Positions 10,880 to 21,499 of a stretch of DNA of 22,441 nucleotides are shown here, in pieces. Each line of letters begins with the position of its first letter. Within the stretch, counting starts at the first letter, position 1. The DNA is from a virus, in IMG/VR virus record IMGVR_UViG_3300010375_000053, positions 1-22,441 of that record; one strand, given 5' to 3'. The notes under the pieces were generated by a model. The model did not search any database. It worked only from the letters and a program-made list of their open reading frames with translations, and was not told where the DNA came from. Both the position numbers and the translations under genes were made by a program.

Positions 10880-13042
10880 TCAGGCTAAACGTTGCGCGAT
10901 CGAGCGGCGGGCCGCCGGCGGTTTGGCCGGCGGAGGCGGGGGCGGCGGCGCCTTGGCCGGCTCGGCTGCCAGCGGCACCGCGAGCGGCGCATCCGGCTCA
11001 TCGTCACCATCTGCCGCCGTCGGGGACGTGATGACCGTGGTGATCGTCGCACCGACCTGGTCGGCGATCCGATTCAGCTTGGTGCCCATGTGGATCAGGC
11101 CGCGCAGAGCGGCATAGGCGTATACCCGACAGTCGAGCCGCTCGTTCGCCCGCCCCGGGATTGGAACCCACTTGCGCACCTTCTGAGCGCCTTCGCCCTC
11201 GATCTGGATGCGCTCCGCCGTCAGCTGCTCGAATGCGGCGACGTCCCAGTCGGTGTTGAAGTGCATGTATCCCGGGCCAGGCGTTTGCTTGTGCAGCCAA
11301 CCGCGGACGGCATCCTTCGCCGCATTGACGCCGATTATCACCGGCCGGAAGGTCTTGCGCGATCGTGTGCTTGGCCGCTTTATCGGCCACACCGGGTTGC
11401 GAAAACCGGTCCGGGCGCTCTCGCCCTTGATGGCCCAGATCTTGCGGCCGAGCCTCGTCTTCGAGAAATTATAAACGGCGTCGGTGTGGTGGCCGCCCGA
11501 GTCCTGGCAAGCCGCGGTGATCACGAAGGGCCGGCCGTCCGCCCGATACCAGGTCCGGGCGAGATATTCGTCGAGCGCGATCTGGGTCGCCGGGTCGGTC
11601 ATCTCGCCATCGATGACGTGATATTCGACCGACCAGCTTTCCTCGTTTCGGCCCCAGCCGACGACCTCAATTTCGACGCGATAGTCCTGGGTGTCGATTC
11701 CCGCGGTGAGCATCGCGACGCCATCGGGAACCACGCCGGCAGCCCAGTTCTCGCAGCGCTTGAGCAGCGCGTCGATCGCGATCTCCTTGCCGCCATGCCG
11801 GCGGTAGGGGAGGGCTGCCTGGGTATTGTACCAGACCTGCTTCTTGTCCTCGTCGTGCTGCGCCGCGATCCATTTGCGCGCGATGTATGGGGGCGCGTCT
11901 TTCGGCCACGGCGAATAGAGTTTGCTCGCCTGGAACCCTGCGTGCTCGTTCGGCACCGCCCAGGTGCCACATTTTCCGCAGCGGGCGCGATAGACCGCCC
12001 ACCGGTCCGATTCCCACCAATCCCAGACCTTCTCGACCGCGTCCGGATCCTGCTCGCGCCAAAGCGCTTCGAACGTCTCGAGCGGGACCTGACGCTGGCC
12101 GCAGCAGTCGAACGGGCGCGTTTGGTGCCAGCGTATGGTGCCGAGCGCCCGTCGACGCTGCCCCTCGGTCCAGGCGGTCCCGCACGCCTCGCAATAGATC
12201 TGCGCGGTCTCGGGCTTGTGCCGCTCGCCGTCCTCGCTCTTTTCCCACTCGATATGCTTGAAGAAGTCCGGAAACTGCCGGTGCGAGCAATGCGGACATT
12301 CGACCGAGGCGCGGCGCTGATCCGACGTCAGATAGCTAGCTTCGATCCTGCTTTCGTCTTTGACCGTCGGGGAGCAGACTCGAACCGACAGCCAGTTCGG
12401 AAACGAGGCCATGCGCTCGTCACCGATATCGATTGGGTCGCCCTCGCGGGTGACCGGGTACTTGTCGACCTCGTCATACATGACGATCCGGACCGGCCGG
12501 CGCGCCAGGTTGTCCGGGCTGCCGGCGCCGACCAGGGCGAGAAAACCGCCCGGGAACGACTTGAAGAGCAAGGTCTCCTCGGCTTTCCGCGTCTTCACGG
12601 TCCCGACAAGCTGGCGCAGCACCGGGGTGGCGTTGATCAGCGGCCCGATCCGCTCCTTGGAGAATTGCTCGGCCGCGTCCTCCTTCGGCTGGACGAGCAG
12701 GGCAGGGCAGGGGTCAAGGTGTGCGTGAAAGCCGACGATGTTCTCAAGCAACGACGTCTTGAGCAGCTGCGTCGCTACCATGGCGGTGATGATGTGGACC
12801 CCGGGCTCTGTGCCGGCGAGCATCGGGCCGCGGGCGACCTCAACGGTCGACGTCCTCCATTGGCCCGATGAACTCCCGGCCTCCTTCGCGAGCTTGCGAA
12901 AGCGATCGGCCCAGTCCGGAATGCTGATACGTGGGGGAGGCGTCCAACCTCGCCGCCATGCGCGGTGAAGCCGGTCCTCGTTACCCCTGAGCGGCGAAGT
13001 CTGCTTCGGGTTCGCCGAGCTGTTCGAGGAGCTGCTGGACAT
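10880..13042 (-). CDS. terL: Terminase large subunit, GpA type
   Basis: 720 residues. Typical opening: helical DNA-binding start, then ISIPDWADRFRKLAKEAGSSSGQW. The ATPase motifs are an atypical P-loop-like ATQLLKTS (about 90-97) and Walker B IVMYDEVDKYP (about 186-196). A zinc-binding pair follows (CPHC at 249-252 and CEACG at 284-288), with a further CGKCG. The nuclease part has GIDTQDYRVEIEVVGWG and ACQDSGGHHTDAVYNF, with acidic residues expected to bind metal. The protein cuts concatemers and drives DNA packaging. It overlaps the small terminase end by about 60 bases; later starts are possible, but the Ser-rich start at 13042 keeps the whole N-terminal domain. The GpA family usually makes cohesive ends. 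Confidence 0.95.
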   Translation of the reverse strand: MSSSSSNSSANPKQTSPLRGNEDRLHRAWRRGWTPPPRISIPDWADRFRKLAKEAGSSSGQWRTSTVEVARGPMLAGTEPGVHIITAMVATQLLKTSLLENIVGFHAHLDPCPALLVQPKEDAAEQFSKERIGPLINATPVLRQLVGTVKTRKAEETLLFKSFPGGFLALVGAGSPDNLARRPVRIVMYDEVDKYPVTREGDPIDIGDERMASFPNWLSVRVCSPTVKDESRIEASYLTSDQRRASVECPHCSHRQFPDFFKHIEWEKSEDGERHKPETAQIYCEACGTAWTEGQRRRALGTIRWHQTRPFDCCGQRQVPLETFEALWREQDPDAVEKVWDWWESDRWAVYRARCGKCGTWAVPNEHAGFQASKLYSPWPKDAPPYIARKWIAAQHDEDKKQVWYNTQAALPYRRHGGKEIAIDALLKRCENWAAGVVPDGVAMLTAGIDTQDYRVEIEVVGWGRNEESWSVEYHVIDGEMTDPATQIALDEYLARTWYRADGRPFVITAACQDSGGHHTDAVYNFSKTRLGRKIWAIKGESARTGFRNPVWPIKRPSTRSRKTFRPVIIGVNAAKDAVRGWLHKQTPGPGYMHFNTDWDVAAFEQLTAERIQIEGEGAQKVRKWVPIPGRANERLDCRVYAYAALRGLIHMGTKLNRIADQVGATITTVITSPTAADGDDEPDAPLAVPLAAEPAKAPPPPPPPAKPPAARRSIAQRLA

Positions 13043-13613
13043 GGATCGTGAGTGCCTCCACGACCCGGTCGGTATCGACGTCGAGGTCCGCGGCGATCAG
13101 CGGACCGACACGAGCCGGGAATCCCGCCCAGGCATCGCGAGACGCGCGGGCCTGTTCGAACAGGATGGCCTCGGCCCGCTCCACCTCGACCAGGCTGCCC
13201 GCCTCCTTGCGCGCCGCGATCAGATGCTTTGCGGCGAGGCCGTTCTCCTTGATCTGCTCGGCCCTGACGATCGAAGCGAATTCGCCGGCGAGCACGTTGG
13301 CGAGGAAGTCTTCGGCGTCTTCGTCGACGATCTTCTCGATCGCCGCTTCGACCTCGGCGGCGCTGGGTTTCTTGCGCGACCGGGTGCGGACAGGGGGTGC
13401 GGACACTTTTGCGGGGTCCGCAGCTTTGTCCGCACCCTGCTCCGCATGTCGATTTAGCCGGCGCCAGCCCGAGCCCGCCAACGCGGCGTCAACCTTCCCG
13501 TCCGCCGAAACCGGCAGCTTTCCCGCCTTGATCGCGTTCCGAACGAGCTTGTCGCTGCATCCATCAAGCCGCGCGAATTCGCGGACGCCGACATATCGCT
13601 TGGGTGCGGACAT
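12981..13613 (-). CDS. Terminase small subunit, Nu1-like
   Basis: 210 residues. Residues 1-55 form an excisionase/MerR-like winged helix (KRYVGVREFARLDGCSDKLV, then RNAIKAGKLPV), the DNA-binding domain Nu1 uses at cosB. A basic linker with SRKK (about 70-85) follows, then a long helical part (EVEAAIEKIVDEDAEDFLAN ... LIAARKEAGSLVEVERAEAI) that would contact the large subunit. The gene directly precedes the GpA-type terminase. The start ATG at 13613 lies inside one copy of a 12-bp direct repeat, and GGGTGCGGAC elements recur inside the gene; these are listed separately as possible recognition sites. Confidence 0.85.
   Translation of the reverse strand: MSAPKRYVGVREFARLDGCSDKLVRNAIKAGKLPVSADGKVDAALAGSGWRRLNRHAEQGADKAADPAKVSAPPVRTRSRKKPSAAEVEAAIEKIVDEDAEDFLANVLAGEFASIVRAEQIKENGLAAKHLIAARKEAGSLVEVERAEAILFEQARASRDAWAGFPARVGPLIAADLDVDTDRVVEALTIHVQQLLEQLGEPEADFAAQG
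13382..13437 (-). repeat. Cluster of GTCCGCACCC elements inside the small terminase gene
   Basis: On the plus strand GGGTGCGGAC occurs at 13382-13391 and again at 13395-13404, and in inverted orientation (GTCCGCACCC) at 13428-13437. The first two copies fall in different reading frames (VRT versus SAP codons), and the inverted copy encodes GAD. The DNA sequence rather than the peptide is what is conserved. Together with the copies at 13602-13625 this makes five exact 10-mers within 244 bases. Candidate binding sites for the small terminase or another phage DNA-binding protein. Confidence 0.6.
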
Positions 13614-13625
13614 TTGGGTGCGGAC
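13600..13625 (-). repeat. 12-bp direct repeat at the small terminase start
   Basis: TTGGGTGCGGAC occurs at 13600-13611 and 13614-13625 (14-bp period); on the coding strand each reads GTCCGCACCCAA. One copy is in the untranslated leader, the other covers the ATG and codons 2-5. It contains the same 10-mer as the internal cluster 165 bases downstream. The position, just upstream of and in the small terminase gene, is where lambda has cosB and where many phages have pac. It could also be an operator controlling translation or transcription of the gene. Confidence 0.6.
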
Positions 13626-13667
13626 CCCTTTCGGAGTTCAGCGCTGGTGACGTATCGGGGCGCGCAA

Positions 13668-13961
13668 TTACCCGCGATGCAATAGGGGCGTGGAGGGACC
13701 CGTCGCGATCATGGCGCTGAGGTCGGCCGTCGGGGCGGGGGTCAGGCCGATCGGGCCAGCGTCGGTGAGCAGCGAGCCCGGCTGCAGCGGGCCACCACGA
13801 TAGGCTTTGAGGCGACGCGGTCGGGGCTCGCCGGGGATGCGGCGCGCGAGGTGGATGCGTTCGGCGCCCCACCAGTTGCCCGAGGTCGCGTTGACGTAGG
13901 TCTGACGGCCGAACAGCCAAGCGAGGTTGTCGATCAGACTGACGATGAACCAAGGGATCAT
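13668..13961 (-). CDS. Hypothetical phage protein with hydrophobic N-terminus
   Basis: 97 residues from ATG 13961, with GGAG about eight bases upstream; the preceding gene's TAG is two bases away. The first 18 residues (MIPWFIVSLIDNLAWLFG) are hydrophobic and could be a short membrane or amphipathic segment. A WWGAERIHLARRIPGEPRPRR basic part follows, and a Pro/Thr/Ala-rich tail of about 45 residues that is probably disordered. No family recognised. GC3-rich codon use and tight spacing with the upstream gene support that it is real. Being between small-protein genes and the terminase it may act in lysis, packaging or neither; the sequence does not decide. Confidence 0.6.
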   Translation of the reverse strand: MIPWFIVSLIDNLAWLFGRQTYVNATSGNWWGAERIHLARRIPGEPRPRRLKAYRGGPLQPGSLLTDAGPIGLTPAPTADLSAMIATGPSTPLLHRG

Positions 13962-13963
13962 GC

Positions 13964-14617
13964 CTATCTCCGTGCAGTGGCGATCGCCATGCGCAGCGCA
14001 TCCTCAAAGGCCGCACGCGCATGGCGATCGATGTAGGCCCGGGCGCGCTGCTCGAATGGCAGGCGCTTGGGCGCGGGGGTCGTGTCCTCGAACTGGATCA
14101 GCAAGCGCAGGCCGGTGCGGCCCTTCGTGCCCTTGCCGCCGTCGCGACGAATGCCATTGGCTGGGCGTTGCCACACGCCGTTGATGATGCGGCCGCTGCG
14201 CGTCTTCACGGGGCCGATGAATACGCCCGGCTTGCCTTTGAGAGCAGCCAGCTTGCCGCGCGTCAGGTTGTGGTATCGGTTGACCGGCACTGCCCTCGGA
14301 ACGAGCATGCCCTTTTTGGTGCCGAGGAAGCGAGCACCGCCAACGACATATGGCTGGAGATACTGCGCCTGGATGTCCTTGGCGGCGACGATCGCGATCG
14401 GTCGCGACTTGGTGGCGACCTCAACCCGATACGCGTTCTGGGTGAAAGGCGTCGGACTGTCGAATGTCTGCTCGATCAGTTCGCGCTCGTCGGCGGCGGC
14501 GCCGCGTGCCAGCGTGTTGAGAGCGAGCGAAACGGCGAATGGAACTTGTTGCGACCGCAGCGCGATCAGACCGCGATGAAGGGGCGAGAGGTTGCCCTTA
14601 ATGTTGACCGTCAGCAC
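13964..14617 (-). CDS. Basic phage protein, possibly virion or neck-associated
   Basis: 217 residues. Sequence pattern: VNIKGNLSPLHRGLIALRS, then QVPFAVSLALNTLARGA, TPFTQNAYRVEVATKSR, KDIQAQYLQPYVVGGARFLG and NLTRGKLAALKGKPGVFIG, with a Lys/Arg-rich C-terminal half. The order 'helix that activates N-terminal Ala/Leu-rich domain, PTPFT, then conserved Q..YL.P.. GG.R' recurs in uncharacterised phage proteins that I associate with neck or minor virion components, but I cannot name a family. Position upstream of the terminase is unusual for such proteins. Start GTG/ATG choice: ATG 14617 overlaps the end of the previous gene by seven bases. Confidence 0.6.
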   Translation of the reverse strand: MLTVNIKGNLSPLHRGLIALRSQQVPFAVSLALNTLARGAAADERELIEQTFDSPTPFTQNAYRVEVATKSRPIAIVAAKDIQAQYLQPYVVGGARFLGTKKGMLVPRAVPVNRYHNLTRGKLAALKGKPGVFIGPVKTRSGRIINGVWQRPANGIRRDGGKGTKGRTGLRLLIQFEDTTPAPKRLPFEQRARAYIDRHARAAFEDALRMAIATARR

Positions 14618-14918: not shown

Positions 14919-15506
14919 TTAGGCGGCGATCCCCATAGCGGGATTTGCGTTCTCTACCTGTTCGTCACCCAAAAGCCAAGTGCCAACCTTGAAGCGAATT
15001 GCACCGCCGAAACAGACGAGCGCGAACTGGCCATCGCTCTCTTCGACAATGCCTTCGAGGCCTTGAGCCGGACCGTCGGTGACGCGCACCGTTGATCCGG
15101 TGTCGAACCGCCGACATCGCGTCTTGCGCTCTGCCTTGGCCCAGCGGTCCTCTTCGGCGCGAAGGCCGGCAATCTCGCGATCCTGGACGTCGACCAACCT
15201 GCCGTTGTGTCGGAATATTGAGAAGGCGGGATGTGGGTTCACCGGATTGGCCGCGATGGTCAGCAATTCGATGGCGTGCTGCTTTCGAACGAACACGAAT
15301 GTCGGCATGATCGCCACCTCGCGCTCGACGAGCTGTTTGGAGCGAGGGCGGCGTCGACGATGAATGCGCAATGGCGTCCACGCGCTCAAGCCAGCCTTCT
15401 CCAGCGACTTCATCAATGGCAGCGTGCGCGCGCCTGCAGTTCGAAGGATGCACCACGCGTCCGGCGTGCCGCTTCCGAATTGACCCTGTTCCACGATGCG
15501 CATCAT
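14919..15506 (-). CDS. NusG-like transcription (anti)termination protein
   Basis: 195 residues from ATG 15506 (MMRIVEQGQFG), which has GGGGTGG directly upstream and lies ten bases after the previous stop; the longer frame starting MCRIMDC is Cys-rich shadow. Residues 17-105 form an NGN domain (AWCILRTAGARTLPLMKSLE, then IMPTFVFVR, equivalent to the NusG 'WY.v.t' and 'PGYV.v' strands). Residues about 137-180 form a KOW domain (GSTVRVTDGPAQGLEGIVEE). Specialised NusG paralogues such as RfaH bind RNA polymerase and let it read through terminators. Its place just before the late genes suggests a phage antitermination factor; that role is inferred. Confidence 0.82.
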   Translation of the reverse strand: MMRIVEQGQFGSGTPDAWCILRTAGARTLPLMKSLEKAGLSAWTPLRIHRRRRPRSKQLVEREVAIMPTFVFVRKQHAIELLTIAANPVNPHPAFSIFRHNGRLVDVQDREIAGLRAEEDRWAKAERKTRCRRFDTGSTVRVTDGPAQGLEGIVEESDGQFALVCFGGAIRFKVGTWLLGDEQVENANPAMGIAA

Positions 15507-15516
15507 CCCACCCCGA

Positions 15517-15918
15517 TCAACGATCTGATATTTGGTACATCTTCTCCAACAGCGGCAGTCCATAATCCGGCACATCGGTTATCACTGGATATGCCGCCGC
15601 CAACGCCACTGGCGGCTTGGTGATCGTCCAACCGCGCAGCGCGCAGGCGATCTCTATCTCCGTGTCCGACAGGCAGGCTGTACGGTCGACGAGGCGGATC
15701 GAGCGGGCGACCCCGCGCTCGTACGTCAGCAGTCCATCACGCTCGAGCACGTCCAGCCAGGCGCCGACGTGCTGCCTCTGCACCCCGGTAGCCGCGGCGA
15801 TCTCCCGATGGCTCGGCGATTGGCCCAGCGCGCGGAAGTGCTGGCGGATAGCTTCGATGATCTTCTGGCGCCGCGACGACATCGATGCCGTCGGCATGCC
15901 GAGAATATCATCCCCCAT
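15517..15918 (-). CDS. LexA-type winged-helix DNA-binding protein
   Basis: 133 residues. Residues about 13-77 match the LexA N-terminal winged helix: SSRRQKIIEAIRQHFRALGQ, then SPSHREIAAATGVQRQHVGA, WLDVLERDGLLTYERGVARS. There is no LexA autoprotease domain (no Ser-Lys dyad), so the protein would be DNA-binding only; the C-terminal 55 residues are unassigned. Start ATG 15918 overlaps the upstream gene by 11 bases; internal ATGs at 15897 and 15882 are alternatives and both keep the domain. Encoded directly before the NusG-like gene, it may control the early-to-late switch. The target site is not identified. Confidence 0.75.
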   Translation of the reverse strand: MGDDILGMPTASMSSRRQKIIEAIRQHFRALGQSPSHREIAAATGVQRQHVGAWLDVLERDGLLTYERGVARSIRLVDRTACLSDTEIEIACALRGWTITKPPVALAAAYPVITDVPDYGLPLLEKMYQISDR

Positions 15919-16522: not shown

Positions 16523-17189
16523 TGCGGGTTTCCAGCGTTGCCGTGATCCATGCGACGGGATCGGACGGCGTTTGATGTTGAGCGGCGGAGAGGGCGTCGA
16601 GCACGGCGCCATCGCCGAACTTCTGGCGCCACCGGCCGAGCAGTGAGCGGGCGCTTCGGTCGGGGATGCCGGTGCTTGTCAGGAGCGGCACGCCGGACGC
16701 GAACACGGCGGCTCGCAGGTCAGCAGGGTTTGGGGCAGGCGGTGGGGGCGGCGCAGCGGCGCCCGAAGCGTCAGCTTCGGAATTATCTGTCTTTGTCTCT
16801 GTCTCTGCTTCTGGTGCCGTTGCGCGACGGGGATGCAACGTTGCACCGCCGTTGCGCTTCTTCTCGCGATGCTTCTTAGAACGCTCAGTGGAGCTATCGC
16901 TCTCGTATTGGCGCTTGGACCATGCCGCGACTGCGCCGGATGCGATGAGGCCGAGTTCGGAATATGCATCGAACAGGGCGGTGATCGGATCGAGGGGTTC
17001 GGACAGGATGACGGCGACGCGGCGCGCCGACGTCGTGTAGCGGCCAGAATCGTTCGCGCTGGCCGCGCTTTCGAGGAGGGCATGCCAGGCGGAGATCGCG
17101 ACAGAACGCGATACACCGGCGAGCATGGCGGCCTCGGCAAGTTTGGGGTCAGTGACAGTGCCTTCATAGGCGCGATACCAACGGGTCAC
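16443..17189 (-). CDS. Probable phage replication protein with HTH start
   Basis: 248 residues from GTG 17189 (GTG ACC CGT TGG), whose TGA overlaps the methyltransferase stop (GTGA). The N-terminal 80 residues (TRWYRAYEGTVTDPKLAEAA, MLAGVSRSVAISAWHALLES) look like a winged-helix replisome-organiser start. A basic, then acidic, low-complexity and poly-Pro linker follows (APPPPPAPNP). The last domain (SLLGRWRQKFGDGAVLDALS, AAQHQTPSDPVAWITATLET) matches the C-terminal 'W...G...V..A...A....P.DPVAWI' pattern of phage replication initiation proteins. It probably binds the phage origin and recruits helicase. The longer ATG frame upstream lies in the methyltransferase gene and is rejected. Confidence 0.65.
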   Translation of the reverse strand: MTRWYRAYEGTVTDPKLAEAAMLAGVSRSVAISAWHALLESAASANDSGRYTTSARRVAVILSEPLDPITALFDAYSELGLIASGAVAAWSKRQYESDSSTERSKKHREKKRNGGATLHPRRATAPEAETETKTDNSEADASGAAAPPPPPAPNPADLRAAVFASGVPLLTSTGIPDRSARSLLGRWRQKFGDGAVLDALSAAQHQTPSDPVAWITATLETRNGQRTRHDRDTPRDPLLRRDLASGDS

Positions 17190-17911
17190 GACGCCTCCAG
17201 CAGATCGAGCAGGGGCGCGGGCGCCGCCGGCATTTCGTATTTCGGGTAATCGCCGTCGCGCTCGAGCCGCAGCCGACACGGCGAAATCCAGCGCTTGCGG
17301 GTGTCGGCTGGTGCCGCGTCGCGCTTGAGCCAGATGAAGGCCGAGTAGCTTGTCGCCGTCGACGCCTTCGTCCCGGGAGTCTCCGCCAGCGGGTCCAAGT
17401 CACCCGCGCGAACGAGCCGGGCTTTTAGCATCACCACGCGCTCGCTGAACTGCAGCTCGAAGCTCGGCGGCTGCGTGAGGAACAATGTTTCTGCGCGGTC
17501 CTGCCCCTCAGAGAATGCCGAGCGCGCGATCACCACCACGCCGACGCGGCTCAACCGCAGCGCGCGTTCAATGAATTCCTGGGCGAGGCGGAAGGGCGGA
17601 TTGAGGAACGTCCAATCGGTTCGATCGAGATGTTCGTCCGGCCCCCACAGATAGTCGCGCACCGGGAAGCCGCAGCCGTAATCGAAGATGTCGCTCGGCA
17701 TCACATGGCCGAACACCTCGCGCAGCGGCGCGACCATGTGCCCGCGATTGGCGCAAGGCTCGCGGCAGTCGGACATCGCCAACACGAATCCGAGGTTTTC
17801 CAGGAACTCGCAGATCGCCCGCGTCGCCCAGGGCGGTGTCGGGAAATCGTCGAGGCTGTCGGGCGGTTCGATGCGTTGCTGCATCACCGCAGAGGATCTG
17901 TTCTGGCTCAT
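17186..17911 (-). CDS. Phage SAM-dependent DNA methyltransferase
   Basis: 241 residues. DDFPTPPWATRAICEFLENL is the typical start of a phage adenine/cytosine methyltransferase family. EPCANRGHMVAPLREVFGHV (51 onward) is motif I (usually EPACGRGHM; here the G is replaced by N), and WTFLNPPF (100-107) is the NPPF catalytic motif IV. SERVVMLKARLVRAGDLDPL and STATSYSAFIWLKRD complete the family end. The enzyme should methylate an exocyclic amino group in DNA, probably to protect phage DNA or regulate. Its ATG overlaps the ThiF stop (ATGA), so it is co-translated with the PRTRC cassette. No matching restriction gene is seen. Confidence 0.85.
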   Translation of the reverse strand: MSQNRSSAVMQQRIEPPDSLDDFPTPPWATRAICEFLENLGFVLAMSDCREPCANRGHMVAPLREVFGHVMPSDIFDYGCGFPVRDYLWGPDEHLDRTDWTFLNPPFRLAQEFIERALRLSRVGVVVIARSAFSEGQDRAETLFLTQPPSFELQFSERVVMLKARLVRAGDLDPLAETPGTKASTATSYSAFIWLKRDAAPADTRKRWISPCRLRLERDGDYPKYEMPAAPAPLLDLLEAS

Positions 17912-18678
17912 GCGTCGGCGCCAACCGGGGCTGGCAGGGGGATCGGAACGGCCTGTCCGCTGGCGAGGTTGATGAAGCCGCCGGCGTGGCCGATCGACCC
18001 GCGGCCTAGAAGGTCGAACAGCAGCGCCAGCGCGTGGCTCGCCACGACACGGTTGACGAAAAGCGATTGACGCTCGAGCGCTTCGGCCACCGAGCAGGAA
18101 GGCGCATCATCCTCCACCACGCTCTCGTCGGCCAGCTCGGGGAAGTATTCGAGCACGGTGGGGAGGCGCGCGTCCTTTTTGGCACCGCCACCGGCTGGGC
18201 AACCGATCAGGAATTGCCCATCAGTCGCGCGGTTGCCGAGATCCAGCCAATATCGAGGCGGCCGCCCGCTCTCTCCAATCGCGGCACCGAGCGCCCGACG
18301 AGCTGCTGCGGTGTCCACGCAGGTGATCAGGACGTCGACGTCTTTCACGCCGATCGCTTCCGGGGCGCGGCCATGAACTGCCCGCCAGGCTAGCCCCTGC
18401 GCGAGGTTGATCCGCTCGGTGAGCGTGCGCGCCTTCGAATTGCCAAGGTCGCAACCGTAGAACGGCTGACGCCCAAGGTTTGCCTCGGTCACGATGTCGT
18501 CGTCGACGACCGTGACGTGCAGTGACCGCGACGATATCGCCCGCAGCGCCGTGTCGAGGGATGCGAGGCCCATAAGCATCTGCGCCCCGTTCCCGCCGCA
18601 GCCCACGAGCTGGACGTTGATGTCGCGCTTGTCGCATGCCGCGAGCAGATAGTGGCGGGCTGGCGCGTCAGGCTGCAT
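17908..18678 (-). CDS. PRTRC system ThiF family (E1-like) protein
   Basis: 256 residues from ATG 18678 (MQPDAPARHYLLAAC). The frame extends upstream, but that part lies in the protein A gene. LVGCGGNGAQMLMGL (residues 24-38) is the GxGGxG nucleotide-binding loop; VTVVDDDIVTEANLGRQPF (55-73) has the acidic and Asn/Arg residues used for ATP and adenylate handling; LITCVDTAAARRAL (117-130) is the following conserved strand-helix. DAPSCSVAEALERQSLFVNR carries C195, a candidate thioester cysteine. E1-like enzymes adenylate the C-terminus of a ubiquitin-like protein or a sulphur carrier. With protein A, B and C beside it, this one is likely the activating enzyme of a conjugation cassette; substrate unknown. 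Confidence 0.88.
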   Translation of the reverse strand: MQPDAPARHYLLAACDKRDINVQLVGCGGNGAQMLMGLASLDTALRAISSRSLHVTVVDDDIVTEANLGRQPFYGCDLGNSKARTLTERINLAQGLAWRAVHGRAPEAIGVKDVDVLITCVDTAAARRALGAAIGESGRPPRYWLDLGNRATDGQFLIGCPAGGGAKKDARLPTVLEYFPELADESVVEDDAPSCSVAEALERQSLFVNRVVASHALALLFDLLGRGSIGHAGGFINLASGQAVPIPLPAPVGADA

Positions 18679-19330
18679 CGTGATCTCCAGCGAATGGGCT
18701 GCGAGGCATGGGGAGGAACAGTCCATCGGCGCACAGCCGCGAAGCCATCATCGGCGGGCTGGACGGATCGTCGAGGCCACCGAAGACGAGCGCGATCTTG
18801 GTCGCATGGGCATCGTCGGCATCGTCGGTAGAGCTGAAGAACGCGGCCGCGGAACCGTGGCTGTGAACGTCGCAGACGATATGCCAATTAGGCGCCAGGT
18901 TCGGTGTGCGATAGACCAGCCGCGAGGGCGTCGCATGGTCGACAGCCGGGTAATCGACGGCGAATCTTCCGTCGACCTCGTTCCAGATCACGAACGCCGC
19001 CGCCTCATTCGGCAGCGCCGCCATGAAATGGTCGAGGATCTCGTCGAGGTGGTGACGGGGGACGAGGCCACAGCGCAGGTCAGCCCGCGGCCGGCCAATG
19101 CTGCCATAGGGGAAATAGGCGGCGAGCGCCCCGGTGATCGGCACGTCGAGCTCAAGCCATGGCCGGCGCAGGATAAGCATCACGCCATCATGGCCGACAG
19201 CCAGGCCACGGCCGGCGCGCGCTGAGCGAAGCGCATCGATGGCCGGTGACGATCCGCTCGGCGGGATGGGGTAGCACGGCGCGGCTGAGAGCACGGCCGC
19301 CGCGGTCGGGTCATTGGCGAGGATCGTCAT
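18668..19330 (-). CDS. PRTRC system protein A, JAMM/JAB metalloprotease domain
   Basis: 220 residues. The JAMM zinc signature is present: Glu at 109 (NEAAAFVIWNE) and H156-S-H158-G with Asp169 exactly 10 residues after the second His (HSHG...FFSSTDDAD), the H-x-H-x10-D pattern of deubiquitinase-like proteases. The N-terminal 90 residues are the PRTRC A-specific part. In ubiquitin-like systems such enzymes trim the precursor or remove it from targets. It starts at ATG 19330 overlapping the protein B stop (ATGA) and ends 11 bases into the ThiF gene, all consistent with one translational unit. Catalytic residues appear intact. Confidence 0.88.
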   Translation of the reverse strand: MTILANDPTAAAVLSAAPCYPIPPSGSSPAIDALRSARAGRGLAVGHDGVMLILRRPWLELDVPITGALAAYFPYGSIGRPRADLRCGLVPRHHLDEILDHFMAALPNEAAAFVIWNEVDGRFAVDYPAVDHATPSRLVYRTPNLAPNWHIVCDVHSHGSAAAFFSSTDDADDAHATKIALVFGGLDDPSSPPMMASRLCADGLFLPMPRSPFAGDHDAA

Positions 19331-20100
19331 GCGCGGCCGCTCCGCGCGACAAGCTGTCCGAAACTCACCGGCCCGTTGGCGGTGAACGGCTTGAGCTGCT
19401 TGTAGGGGAACCGGACGGCCTTTCGCGTCGCGAGGTCATCCCATAGGCGCACCAGGCCGCCTTTGCCGGTTACGCTGTGTTCCTGCCCGGGATTGGGATG
19501 CGTCGACCAGGAATCGAACACGGCGCGCTCGTATTCCGGGATCGCCGCAAGCGTGATCTTCTTCGGCTGGGGAATGTTTCCCCAACATAATTGGCCGCTG
19601 TCGAAGACGTTCAGCACGGGAGAGCACATCAGCACGGTCGCCGCGGTCGGCCGTTCGTTGGTGGGCAGGGCGTAGACGCCAAGGCCCGACCGCGTGGCGA
19701 CGAACAGGTGTGCGGGGTAGGGGACTGGCATGACCGTGCGCTCGGAAAGGGCGCGCAGGCCCTTGGGCGGTGCCGACAGGTTGAAATAGGCAAGACGGAC
19801 GCGCTCGGGCGTCCACCACGCCAGCATGTCGGTGTGATAGACGACGACGTTGTCGGGCAGGATCTCGGGCGCGGCCCCTAAACCGAGCGCTTTCGCCCAT
19901 TGGCGCAGATGGGCATGCGAAAGAGGCGCGCCGACGCCTATCGTCGGCTTGCCGTCCGCCTGCTCCACCGCGTGGAGGCTGGCGAATGCGGGCAGGGAGC
20001 GTCCCGGCGCGGATTGGCCCGTCGGCCGGTAGAGCAGGATAGCATTGGTCAGCGCCATGCTGCCGTCGGTGACTTCGAATTGGGTGGAATGTCCGGGCAT
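19327..20100 (-). CDS. PRTRC system protein B, probable E2-like fold
   Basis: 257 residues. ATG 20100 is seven bases after the protein F stop. The C-terminal two thirds (PYPAHLFVATRSGLGVYALP, TNERPTAATVLMCSPVLNVF, then DSGQLCWGNIPQPKKITLAA) resembles the E2 active-site layout: PRTRC protein B matches, from memory, the Pfam family Prok-E2_D, prokaryotic E2-like proteins. C172 in SGQLCWGN is the candidate catalytic cysteine, in the place where eukaryotic E2s have 'NG.iCL'. The THPNPG element (200-205) lies about 28 residues later, unlike the eukaryotic HPN. Enzyme activity has not been inferred from more than these motifs. Neighbours (protein A and ThiF) support a conjugation role. Confidence 0.82.
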   Translation of the reverse strand: MPGHSTQFEVTDGSMALTNAILLYRPTGQSAPGRSLPAFASLHAVEQADGKPTIGVGAPLSHAHLRQWAKALGLGAAPEILPDNVVVYHTDMLAWWTPERVRLAYFNLSAPPKGLRALSERTVMPVPYPAHLFVATRSGLGVYALPTNERPTAATVLMCSPVLNVFDSGQLCWGNIPQPKKITLAAIPEYERAVFDSWSTHPNPGQEHSVTGKGGLVRLWDDLATRKAVRFPYKQLKPFTANGPVSFGQLVARSGRA

Positions 20101-20107
20101 CAGCTAC

Positions 20108-21142
20108 TCACGAATTGGCGGGGTCGATGGTGATCAGCTCCTGGGCGGCGAGCAGGAACTCGGCGCCGAGCTTGAGTGACGCGAACCACGCGTCGACGGC
20201 GGCAGCGTCGGCCAGCGGGCAAAGCCCGGCGATATTCATGAAGCCCTGCTGCATGCCGTAATCGCCGACGTAATCGAGCTCGCGAGCGAACTGGTCTACG
20301 GGGACGAGCGTCATCGCCGGCAAGTGCGAAGCGTCCTCGAATTCCGGCATGTATTCGACGACCTGATCGAACGAGAAGTGCCAGGCGTTCGTCTCGGCCG
20401 GAATACCTTTGATGGCCACGCGCAGATCGCGAAGCCGATAGATCCTCCGCCGCAGCGCCGCCGGCAGCTGCTTCAGCGGGGCCGCGTTCTCCTTGAGCAT
20501 CCAGTCCGGCCGGCGTGCATTCATGGCCGAGGGCAACATTTCCTCGTCGATGTCGCCCAGGTCCTGGCCCATATCGACCATGGCCTTGATCGCGGCTACG
20601 TCGGTGGTCTCGCCGTCCCAGCTGTAGGCGGCCATTTCTTCGAACAGGTCACCATAGCCGAAGATCGGCAGCGCCACCGGCAGCGTCTCGAGCAGCGTCT
20701 GATAGGCAGCGGCACACCACCTTTGCGGCGCCACGCGCTTGCCCGGCTCGGCCGCGAGGGGATTGCTTTCTTCGATCCAGCCCAGGTCGATCTGGCCGAC
20801 GGTGTCGCAGATGATGGCGATCGCCGGCGCCGTGCCATCGTCACCAGCAAGCGCGAGCACTTGCAGGTCCGCCAAATTGAACGGCTTGAGGATCTCGATC
20901 ACCGCCGCATCGAACGCGCGCTCGATGTGCTTGCGAGCATCGGCACGGGTATATCGGGCATCCGACTTTTCGTGCGATGCGACCCAGGCGCCGATCAGCT
21001 TATGGTGCGCGGCGAGCGGCGCATCGAAGCCTGCCGGGACATCGATCGACAACGCGACCGAACGCCCCGCCAGTTCAACCGAGGGGCGCGAGACGCAACC
21101 CTGCGGGCGGCTGAAGACGCTCGAACGCCGACGCTCCGTCAT
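20108..21142 (-). CDS. PRTRC system protein F
   Basis: 344 residues from ATG 21142 (MTERRRSSVFSRPQGCVSRP). The frame is open to 21217, but the upstream codons are Ser/Arg-rich with much lower GC3, while from 21142 on GC3 is high, so the shorter start is preferred. Recognised mainly by position between C and B, size, and the general mix (Asp/Glu-rich middle with VVEYMPEFEDASHLPAMTLV, and DPLADAAAVDAWFASLKLGA near the end). No catalytic motif is known to me for PRTRC F. There is no Shine-Dalgarno at 21142; the start lies inside the upstream 71-residue ORF, so translation may be coupled. Start uncertain. Confidence 0.72.
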   Translation of the reverse strand: MTERRRSSVFSRPQGCVSRPSVELAGRSVALSIDVPAGFDAPLAAHHKLIGAWVASHEKSDARYTRADARKHIERAFDAAVIEILKPFNLADLQVLALAGDDGTAPAIAIICDTVGQIDLGWIEESNPLAAEPGKRVAPQRWCAAAYQTLLETLPVALPIFGYGDLFEEMAAYSWDGETTDVAAIKAMVDMGQDLGDIDEEMLPSAMNARRPDWMLKENAAPLKQLPAALRRRIYRLRDLRVAIKGIPAETNAWHFSFDQVVEYMPEFEDASHLPAMTLVPVDQFARELDYVGDYGMQQGFMNIAGLCPLADAAAVDAWFASLKLGAEFLLAAQELITIDPANS

Positions 21143-21290
21143 AGGGCGCGAGGAGGATGCTCGCGTGGAGCGCTTGATCCTTTTCGCTGCAGATAGGCTG
21201 GATGCTGCTGTCGACATCGTCTTGTTCGATCCATTCGAGGAGCGTCTTGCGGGCGGCGGCGGGGATGCCCGCGCTCTGGCACCGCGCCAC
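21075..21290 (-). CDS. Unrecognised 71-residue ORF between PRTRC C and F
   Basis: GTG start at 21290, two bases after the protein C stop at 21293. Translation is VARCQSAGIPAAARKTLLEW then a soluble chain ending LAPLG. About 79% of codons end in G or C, similar to the neighbouring genes, and the frame alternative (the F-frame upstream of 21142) looks like shadow. It overlaps the proposed F start by 68 bases. It may be a small cassette protein, or the true N-terminal part of F shifted by an indel. No family recognised. Confidence 0.5.
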   Translation of the reverse strand: MARCQSAGIPAAARKTLLEWIEQDDVDSSIQPICSEKDQALHASILLAPYDGASAFERLQPPAGLRLAPLG

Positions 21291-21292
21291 CG

Positions 21293-21499
21293 TCAGCCCT
21301 TGGTGCCGACCGCGCGCCGGTATTCGGTGACGAGCACGCCGCCCGACACGCCGGCGTCGACCGTCTCGGCATTGAGGATCGCGGGGTAGAGCGTGGCGTG
21401 ATAAGCGCGCAGGCCCTGCGGATCGTCGGCAAGGTGGGGAGGGATCGGAAGATCGATCCCGTCGTAGCGATAGGCTCGGGTCAGATGATTGATTTGCAT
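21293..21499 (-). CDS. PRTRC system protein C (ubiquitin-like, small)
   Basis: 68 residues from ATG 21499, with GAGAG upstream. MQINHLTRAYRYDGIDLPIP forms a beta-hairpin-like start, then a helix (DDPQGLRAYHATLYPAILNA) and strands (GGVLVTEYRRAVGTKG). The RRAVGTKG ending is the hallmark of PRTRC protein C. From memory, this family overlaps Pfam Prok_Ub, prokaryotic ubiquitin-like proteins with E1/E2/JAB neighbours. The chain ends in Gly, so no processing would be required for adenylation by the ThiF protein. Conjugation is inferred, not shown. The short size, position and ending make the identity call secure. Confidence 0.88.
   Translation of the reverse strand: MQINHLTRAYRYDGIDLPIPPHLADDPQGLRAYHATLYPAILNAETVDAGVSGGVLVTEYRRAVGTKG

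Follow-up and report, generated by a model that had tools for sequence, protein, structure and literature searches.

A repeated ten-base element in and before a small terminase gene is a probable multi-copy cosB site of a lambda/N15-type cos region

What is the role of a ten-base element that recurs in and just before the small terminase gene (terS) of a phage? The question is raised by a 22,441-bp stretch of viral DNA (hereafter, the window), for which the original prediction was that the copies form either a cosB/pac-type recognition site of a Nu1-like protein or an autoregulatory operator. All five exact copies of GTCCGCACCC that had been predicted were confirmed at their coordinates (Table 1) and there were zero further copies in the window, compared with an expectation of 0.13 copies from dinucleotide shuffles, among which the maximum was one and none of 100 reached the observed five. 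Allowing one mismatch added a single match, at 16995, to give a total that chance could explain (3.5 expected), and the cluster is thus confined to terS. The details of the prediction held as well: the pair at the start codon extends to a shared 12-mer, GTCCGCACCCAA, around the ATG, the start-to-start spacings of the paired copies are 14 and 13, and the reading frame is not the same for all copies (counted from the ATG, the offsets are 2, 209 and 222 in direct orientation and 176 in inverted orientation, with one further copy in the leader). Two elements had been missed, namely a sixth, inverted copy of the core GTCCGCA at 13416-13422 and a cosQ/cosN-like block at 13659-13701. Four of the six sites are within terS and one more overlaps its start codon. 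As the record of the window is a 22.4-kb IMG/VR fragment, the genome-wide count was made in 11 related records of the GTCCGCA class (386 kb), where 47 of the 55 copies of GTCCGCACC were inside the cos cluster, as counted from the match list.

Table 1. Terminase genes and proposed cos elements of the window; bp numbers are relative to the predicted left cohesive end.
Feature	Position	Strand	Location or product	Basis
terL	10880..13042	-	GpA-family large terminase, 720 aa	PF05876 and PF20454
terS	12981..13613	-	small terminase, 210 aa	phrog_57, E 7.5e-15
R site 6, GTCCGCACCC	13382..13391	-	bp 281-290, direct, within terS	exact match
R site 5, GTCCGCACCC	13395..13404	-	bp 268-277, direct, within terS	exact match
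R site 4 core, GTCCGCA	13416..13422	+	bp 250-256, inverted, within terS	conserved in relatives
R site 3, GTCCGCACCC	13428..13437	+	bp 235-244, inverted, within terS	exact match
R site 2, GTCCGCACCC	13602..13611	-	bp 61-70, overlaps terS start codon	exact match; conserved
R site 1, GTCCGCACCC	13616..13625	-	bp 47-56, leader	exact match; position conserved
Predicted cosN overhang, GTAATTGCGCGCC	13659..13671	-	bp 1 of left cohesive end = 13671	register from BZS1
cosQ-like, GGGTCCCTCC	13692..13701	-	upstream of terS	alignment to relatives; likeness to lambda/N15 cosQ

The repeats are very probably the cosB R sites of the winged-helix domain of TerS, in a cos region of the lambda/N15 type whose putative parts are cosQ (13692-13701), cosN (~13659-13671) and cosB (13382-13625). 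This reading is strongly supported by the cosQ/cosN-like sequences and their spacing, the recurrence of the layout in about 50 relatives, the way the repeated word covaries with the recognition helix of TerS, and the mapped ends of two phages, vB_SspM_BZS1 and RcKemmy. The gene order is that of a small terminase with a winged helix-turn-helix (wHTH), followed directly by a GpA-family large terminase. At about 85-95 nt 5' of the start codon, relatives carry the block GGGTCCTTCC (in the window and in locus L012, GGGTCCCTCC), with CGGG, often TTGCGC, and then CCCAGCT and GAAA downstream at conserved distances. By its sequence, this block matches the cosQ of lambda and N15, which is GGGTCCTTTCC in both and lies 30 nt before their left ends. 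The GGGTCCCTCC of the window is one base off the cosQ consensus and starts 30 nt before predicted bp 1.

The 5' cohesive-end cosN of the window is a prediction by alignment to Serratia phage vB_SspM_BZS1, for which a 12-nt 5' overhang, GCATTGCGCGCC, was reported from PhageTerm, with a check by PCR across the prophage cos (PMC7556043), and it is from the register of this overhang that we infer the nick position in the window phage. In BZS1 the block GGGTCCTTCC is 31 nt before the left end, the word GGTAACA is present at bp 48, 55 and 67, and an intragenic GGTAACA cluster extends from bp 218 to ~303. In lambda-like cos packaging the first R site stands at a set distance from the left end, about bp 48-65; the first repeat is at bp 47 in the window and at bp 46-49 in 26 of the 27 phages that have a recognisable cosN register. 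Contig ends were also considered as physical ends, and were not used: in two loci (L013 and L016) the contig starts 15-21 nt ahead of cosQ, off the predicted nick.

Relatives were collected in two ways. Searches with the TerS and TerL proteins, in which the repeats were not used, gave 19 loci, nine of which (L002-L007, L012, L014 and L015) carry GTCCGCAC at the positions seen in the window, with two copies at the start codon, then inverted ones ~190 bp on, and direct copies after these. Other loci had other words in the same places, including GTTCGCA in L008, GTTTCCAC in L010 and L011, GTTGCCAC in L020 and GTTGACGG in L016. The second set came from a scan for a cosQ plus CCCAGCT pattern from which R words were excluded, and comprised 87 stretches, some of which overlapped the first set. 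Filtering for a TerL match and an open frame resembling terS resulted in 56 distinct cos regions, inclusive of the protein-found loci, phiAP1 and the window; pattern matches with no downstream TerL, many of which looked like chance, were dropped. Because most of these loci were gathered by a pattern that holds both elements, the conservation of cosQ and CCCAGCT among the 56 is partly a result of selection. A strict cosQ-cosN pattern found only three loci on genome contigs (two from Cupriavidus and one from a Desulfocapsaceae MAG).

For each region a 7-mer was picked in the leader zone, counted inside terS and compared with dinucleotide shuffles. In 47 of the 56 the leader 7-mer recurred inside terS above the shuffles (p<=0.01), while in four loci with a TerL (L027, L062, L064 and L065) this test gave no clear repeated word. 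Eight word classes were apparent among the 56 regions: GTCCGCA, GTTCGCA, GTTGACG, GTTGCGG, GGTAACA, GTTGCCA, GTTTCCA and GTTGCA. The word of a region's own class averaged 4.5-7.5 copies, versus mostly <0.3 copies for other words (as many as 1.5 where a class has only one or two phages). From sequence comparison, the layout is conserved in about 50 relatives and the word changes. A stretch that was dropped by the terS/TerL filter (L069:851-1000) has about five tandem units of the GGAATGCCAGCA type after a cosQ-like block and CCCAGCT, and these may be another word class or chance.

The positions of the copies indicate what the sites are tied to. In all 51 phages that were compared, 72-78 nt separate the start of cosQ from that of the first R copy (SD 1.7), whereas the distance from an invariant alanine codon of the wHTH to the same copy is more variable (SD 7.3). 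Inverted intragenic copies are present in 50 of the 51 relatives, the intragenic group has both inverted and direct copies in 48, with the inverted copy first in 42, and successive copies are most often 12 bp apart, followed by 9 or 13 bp. The strongest single case for sites following the DNA end is the Rhodobacter phage RcKemmy (L107; MW677517, 40-85), a member of the RcC cluster whose ends were measured and have an 11-base 5' overhang (PMC8601537). Its deposited left end carries GTTTCCAC at bp 47, 60 and 73, that is, three direct repeats 13 bp apart, a cosQ variant, GGTTCTTCC, is 27 nt before the right end, and terS starts only at 2067 and contains no intragenic copies. Since the RcKemmy repeats are at the end of the DNA and terS is 2 kb off, the sites track the end and not the gene.

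The identity of the word was reflected in TerS itself. Across 51 TerS proteins of seven word classes, recognition-helix residues 21, 22 and 25 (window numbering) follow the word. Residues 21-22 are [D/E]-[K/R/A] with R at 25 in GTCCGCA phages (25 phages), D-T with R at 25 for GTTCGCA (7), H-T with G or Q at 25 for GTTGCCA (2) and H-T with S at 25 for GTTTCCA (1), and they are K-Q for GTTGACG (7), R-Q for GTTGCGG (4) and R-K for GGTAACA (5). Of all TerS columns, 21 and 25 carry the most normalised information on the word; 2 and 62 score high as well, since these residues are themselves encoded by the R word. This correlation suggests that the R word and the TerS recognition helix together set specificity. 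Residue 119 (~13257-13259), a C-terminal position, likewise ranks high and tracks the word, being mostly E in GTCCGCA and L or I in GTTCGCA phages; it is outside the DNA-binding domain and its tracking may come from shared ancestry. At least 15 changes of word are required on a tree of 43 TerL rows, compared with a mean of 22 when shuffled, which indicates that words are inherited yet switch often. Of the cases of a word switch, the one nearest to the window is L013, whose TerL is 77% identical over the alignment and which has the word GTTGACG and a different TerS N-terminus.

In an AlphaFold2 model of TerS, a folded N-terminal domain is followed by residues 57-80, where pLDDT is below 50, and then by a helical C-terminal part. 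Together with fold comparison, the model places the wHTH at about residues 6-56 and a low-confidence linker at 57-80. The four intragenic sites are at about codons 59-78, that is, in the stretch that encodes this linker, which is predicted to be disordered. The fold of the N-terminal domain resembles those of Xis, BldC, MerR-type (SoxR) and terminase DNA-binding domains with middling Z scores, including a Z of 4.0 against gpNu1 (1j9i), and we regard these resemblances as supportive but not decisive. Pfam and PDB sequence searches gave no family name for TerS.

Among known cos systems, N15 is similar in having 30 nt from cosQ to the nick, the TerS-TerL order, a first R site at bp 48 (47 in the window) and an inverted site ~200 bp further on inside the TerS gene (bp 249-260, versus 235-256 in the window). 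The R3 site of N15 is at bp 48-59, and its inverted site at bp 249-260 is the remote rR2, which lies within the TerS gene and is dispensable for plaque formation (PMC4669245). In N15 a single R site is critical and the one remote copy is dispensable, whereas the window has two copies at the start of the gene and four inside it; the words differ too, being GAGGTTGTTGTT in N15 and GTCCGCACCC in the window. Lambda shares the cosQ-cosN-cosB order, a near-identical cosQ, several R sites of which at least one is inverted, and a Nu1-like winged helix, and at bp 54 it has a core, GTTTCC, that is similar to the GTTTCCAC word found in L010 and RcKemmy. However, in lambda (R3-I1-R2-R1) all three R sites precede Nu1 and an IHF site lies between R3 and R2, unlike the window, where most sites are inside terS. 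Near the cos of the window there was no match to the IHF-type consensus WATCAANNNNTTR within one mismatch, a consensus that is from E. coli. With no IHF-type site found between the two groups, lambda's bending step has no explanation here. BZS1 resembles the window in having cosQ 31 nt before the overhang, repeats at bp 48-73, an intragenic cluster and the TerS-TerL order, and differs in the word (GGTAACA versus GTCCGCA); its overhang was taken from the published report and its repeats were noted in this analysis. RcKemmy is similar in its measured 5' overhang end and three direct repeats from bp 47, and differs in having terS 2 kb from the end, no intragenic copies, the word GTTTCCAC and an overhang of 11 bases.

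For the window phage we infer TerS binding, looping and nicking as follows. TerS would bind the leader pair (bp 47-70) and the inverted/direct cluster (bp 235-290), and looping or bending of the ~165 bp that encode the DNA-binding domain would join the two groups. TerS would then anchor the GpA-type TerL over cosN, where TerL would make staggered nicks that leave 5' cohesive ends, and packaging would proceed towards terS-terL. As in lambda, cosQ would act when packaging terminates at the next cos (PMC4669245). Because the remote site of N15 is dispensable (PMC4669245) and no IHF-like site was found, the intragenic copies may have an accessory role. A tentative idea, to which we would not commit, is that the intragenic half is a working part of the initiation complex, acting through the ~165-bp loop, rather than an optional addition as in N15, and that the terS wHTH, flanked by its own sites (the pair at the start codon on one side and the linker-encoded cluster on the other), is a compact specificity cassette exchangeable as a unit, through which phages with similar TerL would have switched packaging specificity again and again.

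Other explanations of the repeats have to be weighed against the cosB reading. The operator proposed as an alternative in the original prediction, in which TerS or another repressor shuts off terS-terL expression and packaging is uninvolved, would account for the leader copy, which covers the stretch from the likely ribosome-binding site to the ATG, and for the copy that overlaps the start codon. We consider it very unlikely, given that the first copy is fixed to cosQ (SD 1.7) and not to the gene (SD 7.3), that most copies are conserved deep in the gene, 170-230 bp inside it, and that RcKemmy has its repeats at the DNA end, 2 kb from terS. The sites might, besides their part in packaging, additionally repress terS. 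For the cosB/pac site of a Nu1-like protein, the other half of that prediction, the subsites, layout, covariation and mapped ends bear out cosB, whereas the pac half did not fare as well. The pac sites of some phages, such as SPP1 and P22, are inside the terS gene, as are four of the six sites here, and the repeats could in principle be TerS contacts of a headful-packaging phage that has no defined cohesive end. Such a site is highly improbable in view of the cosQ/cosN-like sequences at lambda spacing and a TerL of the GpA (cos) family, and in BZS1 and RcKemmy, which share the layout, cohesive ends have been measured (PMC7556043, PMC8601537).

That the DNA copies are no more than the trace of a peptide repeated in the TerS linker, through coding or expansion, has next to no probability. 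Several copies do code for SAP or AD pairs, and among relative frames frame 0 is the most common; however, copies are on both strands and in the untranslated leader, same-strand intragenic copies are in more than one frame in 34 of the 56 phages, and the word switches along with the recognition helix.

Already known were cosB itself, how lambda, 21 and N15 differ in specificity, and the intragenic remote site of N15 (PMC4669245, PMC9026076). Neither multi-copy intragenic R clusters nor word switching in this group was found in the literature searched, outside of which most subscription journals lie. With the cosB reading of the repeats, cosB would reach beyond a few enteric phages to a wide range of phages with GpA terminases. 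The natural TerS recognition words, of which there are at least seven with matching helix residues, are enough to test a recognition code. Our results also suggest that the non-essential remote site of N15 belongs to a widely conserved, multi-copy intragenic arrangement whose role is now testable, and the cosQ-cosN-R spacing rule provides a means to predict the physical genome ends of metagenomic phages.

Several neighbouring genes of the window, all on the minus strand, are also of note. A minor tail protein gene (13964-14617, phrog_1924) comes before cos and terS. Just upstream of the tail and terminase genes is a gene for an RfaH/NusG-like transcription antiterminator (14919-15575, phrog_6386; matches to UpxY/RfaH models were below cutoffs), a candidate regulator of the late operon. 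Also upstream of them is a PRTRC block (17908-22369) with ThiF, A, B and E genes, a below-cutoff match to C and a stretch that matches the C-terminal end of a ParB model. PRTRC blocks are known mainly from plasmids and integrated elements, and the block may point to a phage-plasmid; locus L012 carries at least the PRTRC ThiF gene.
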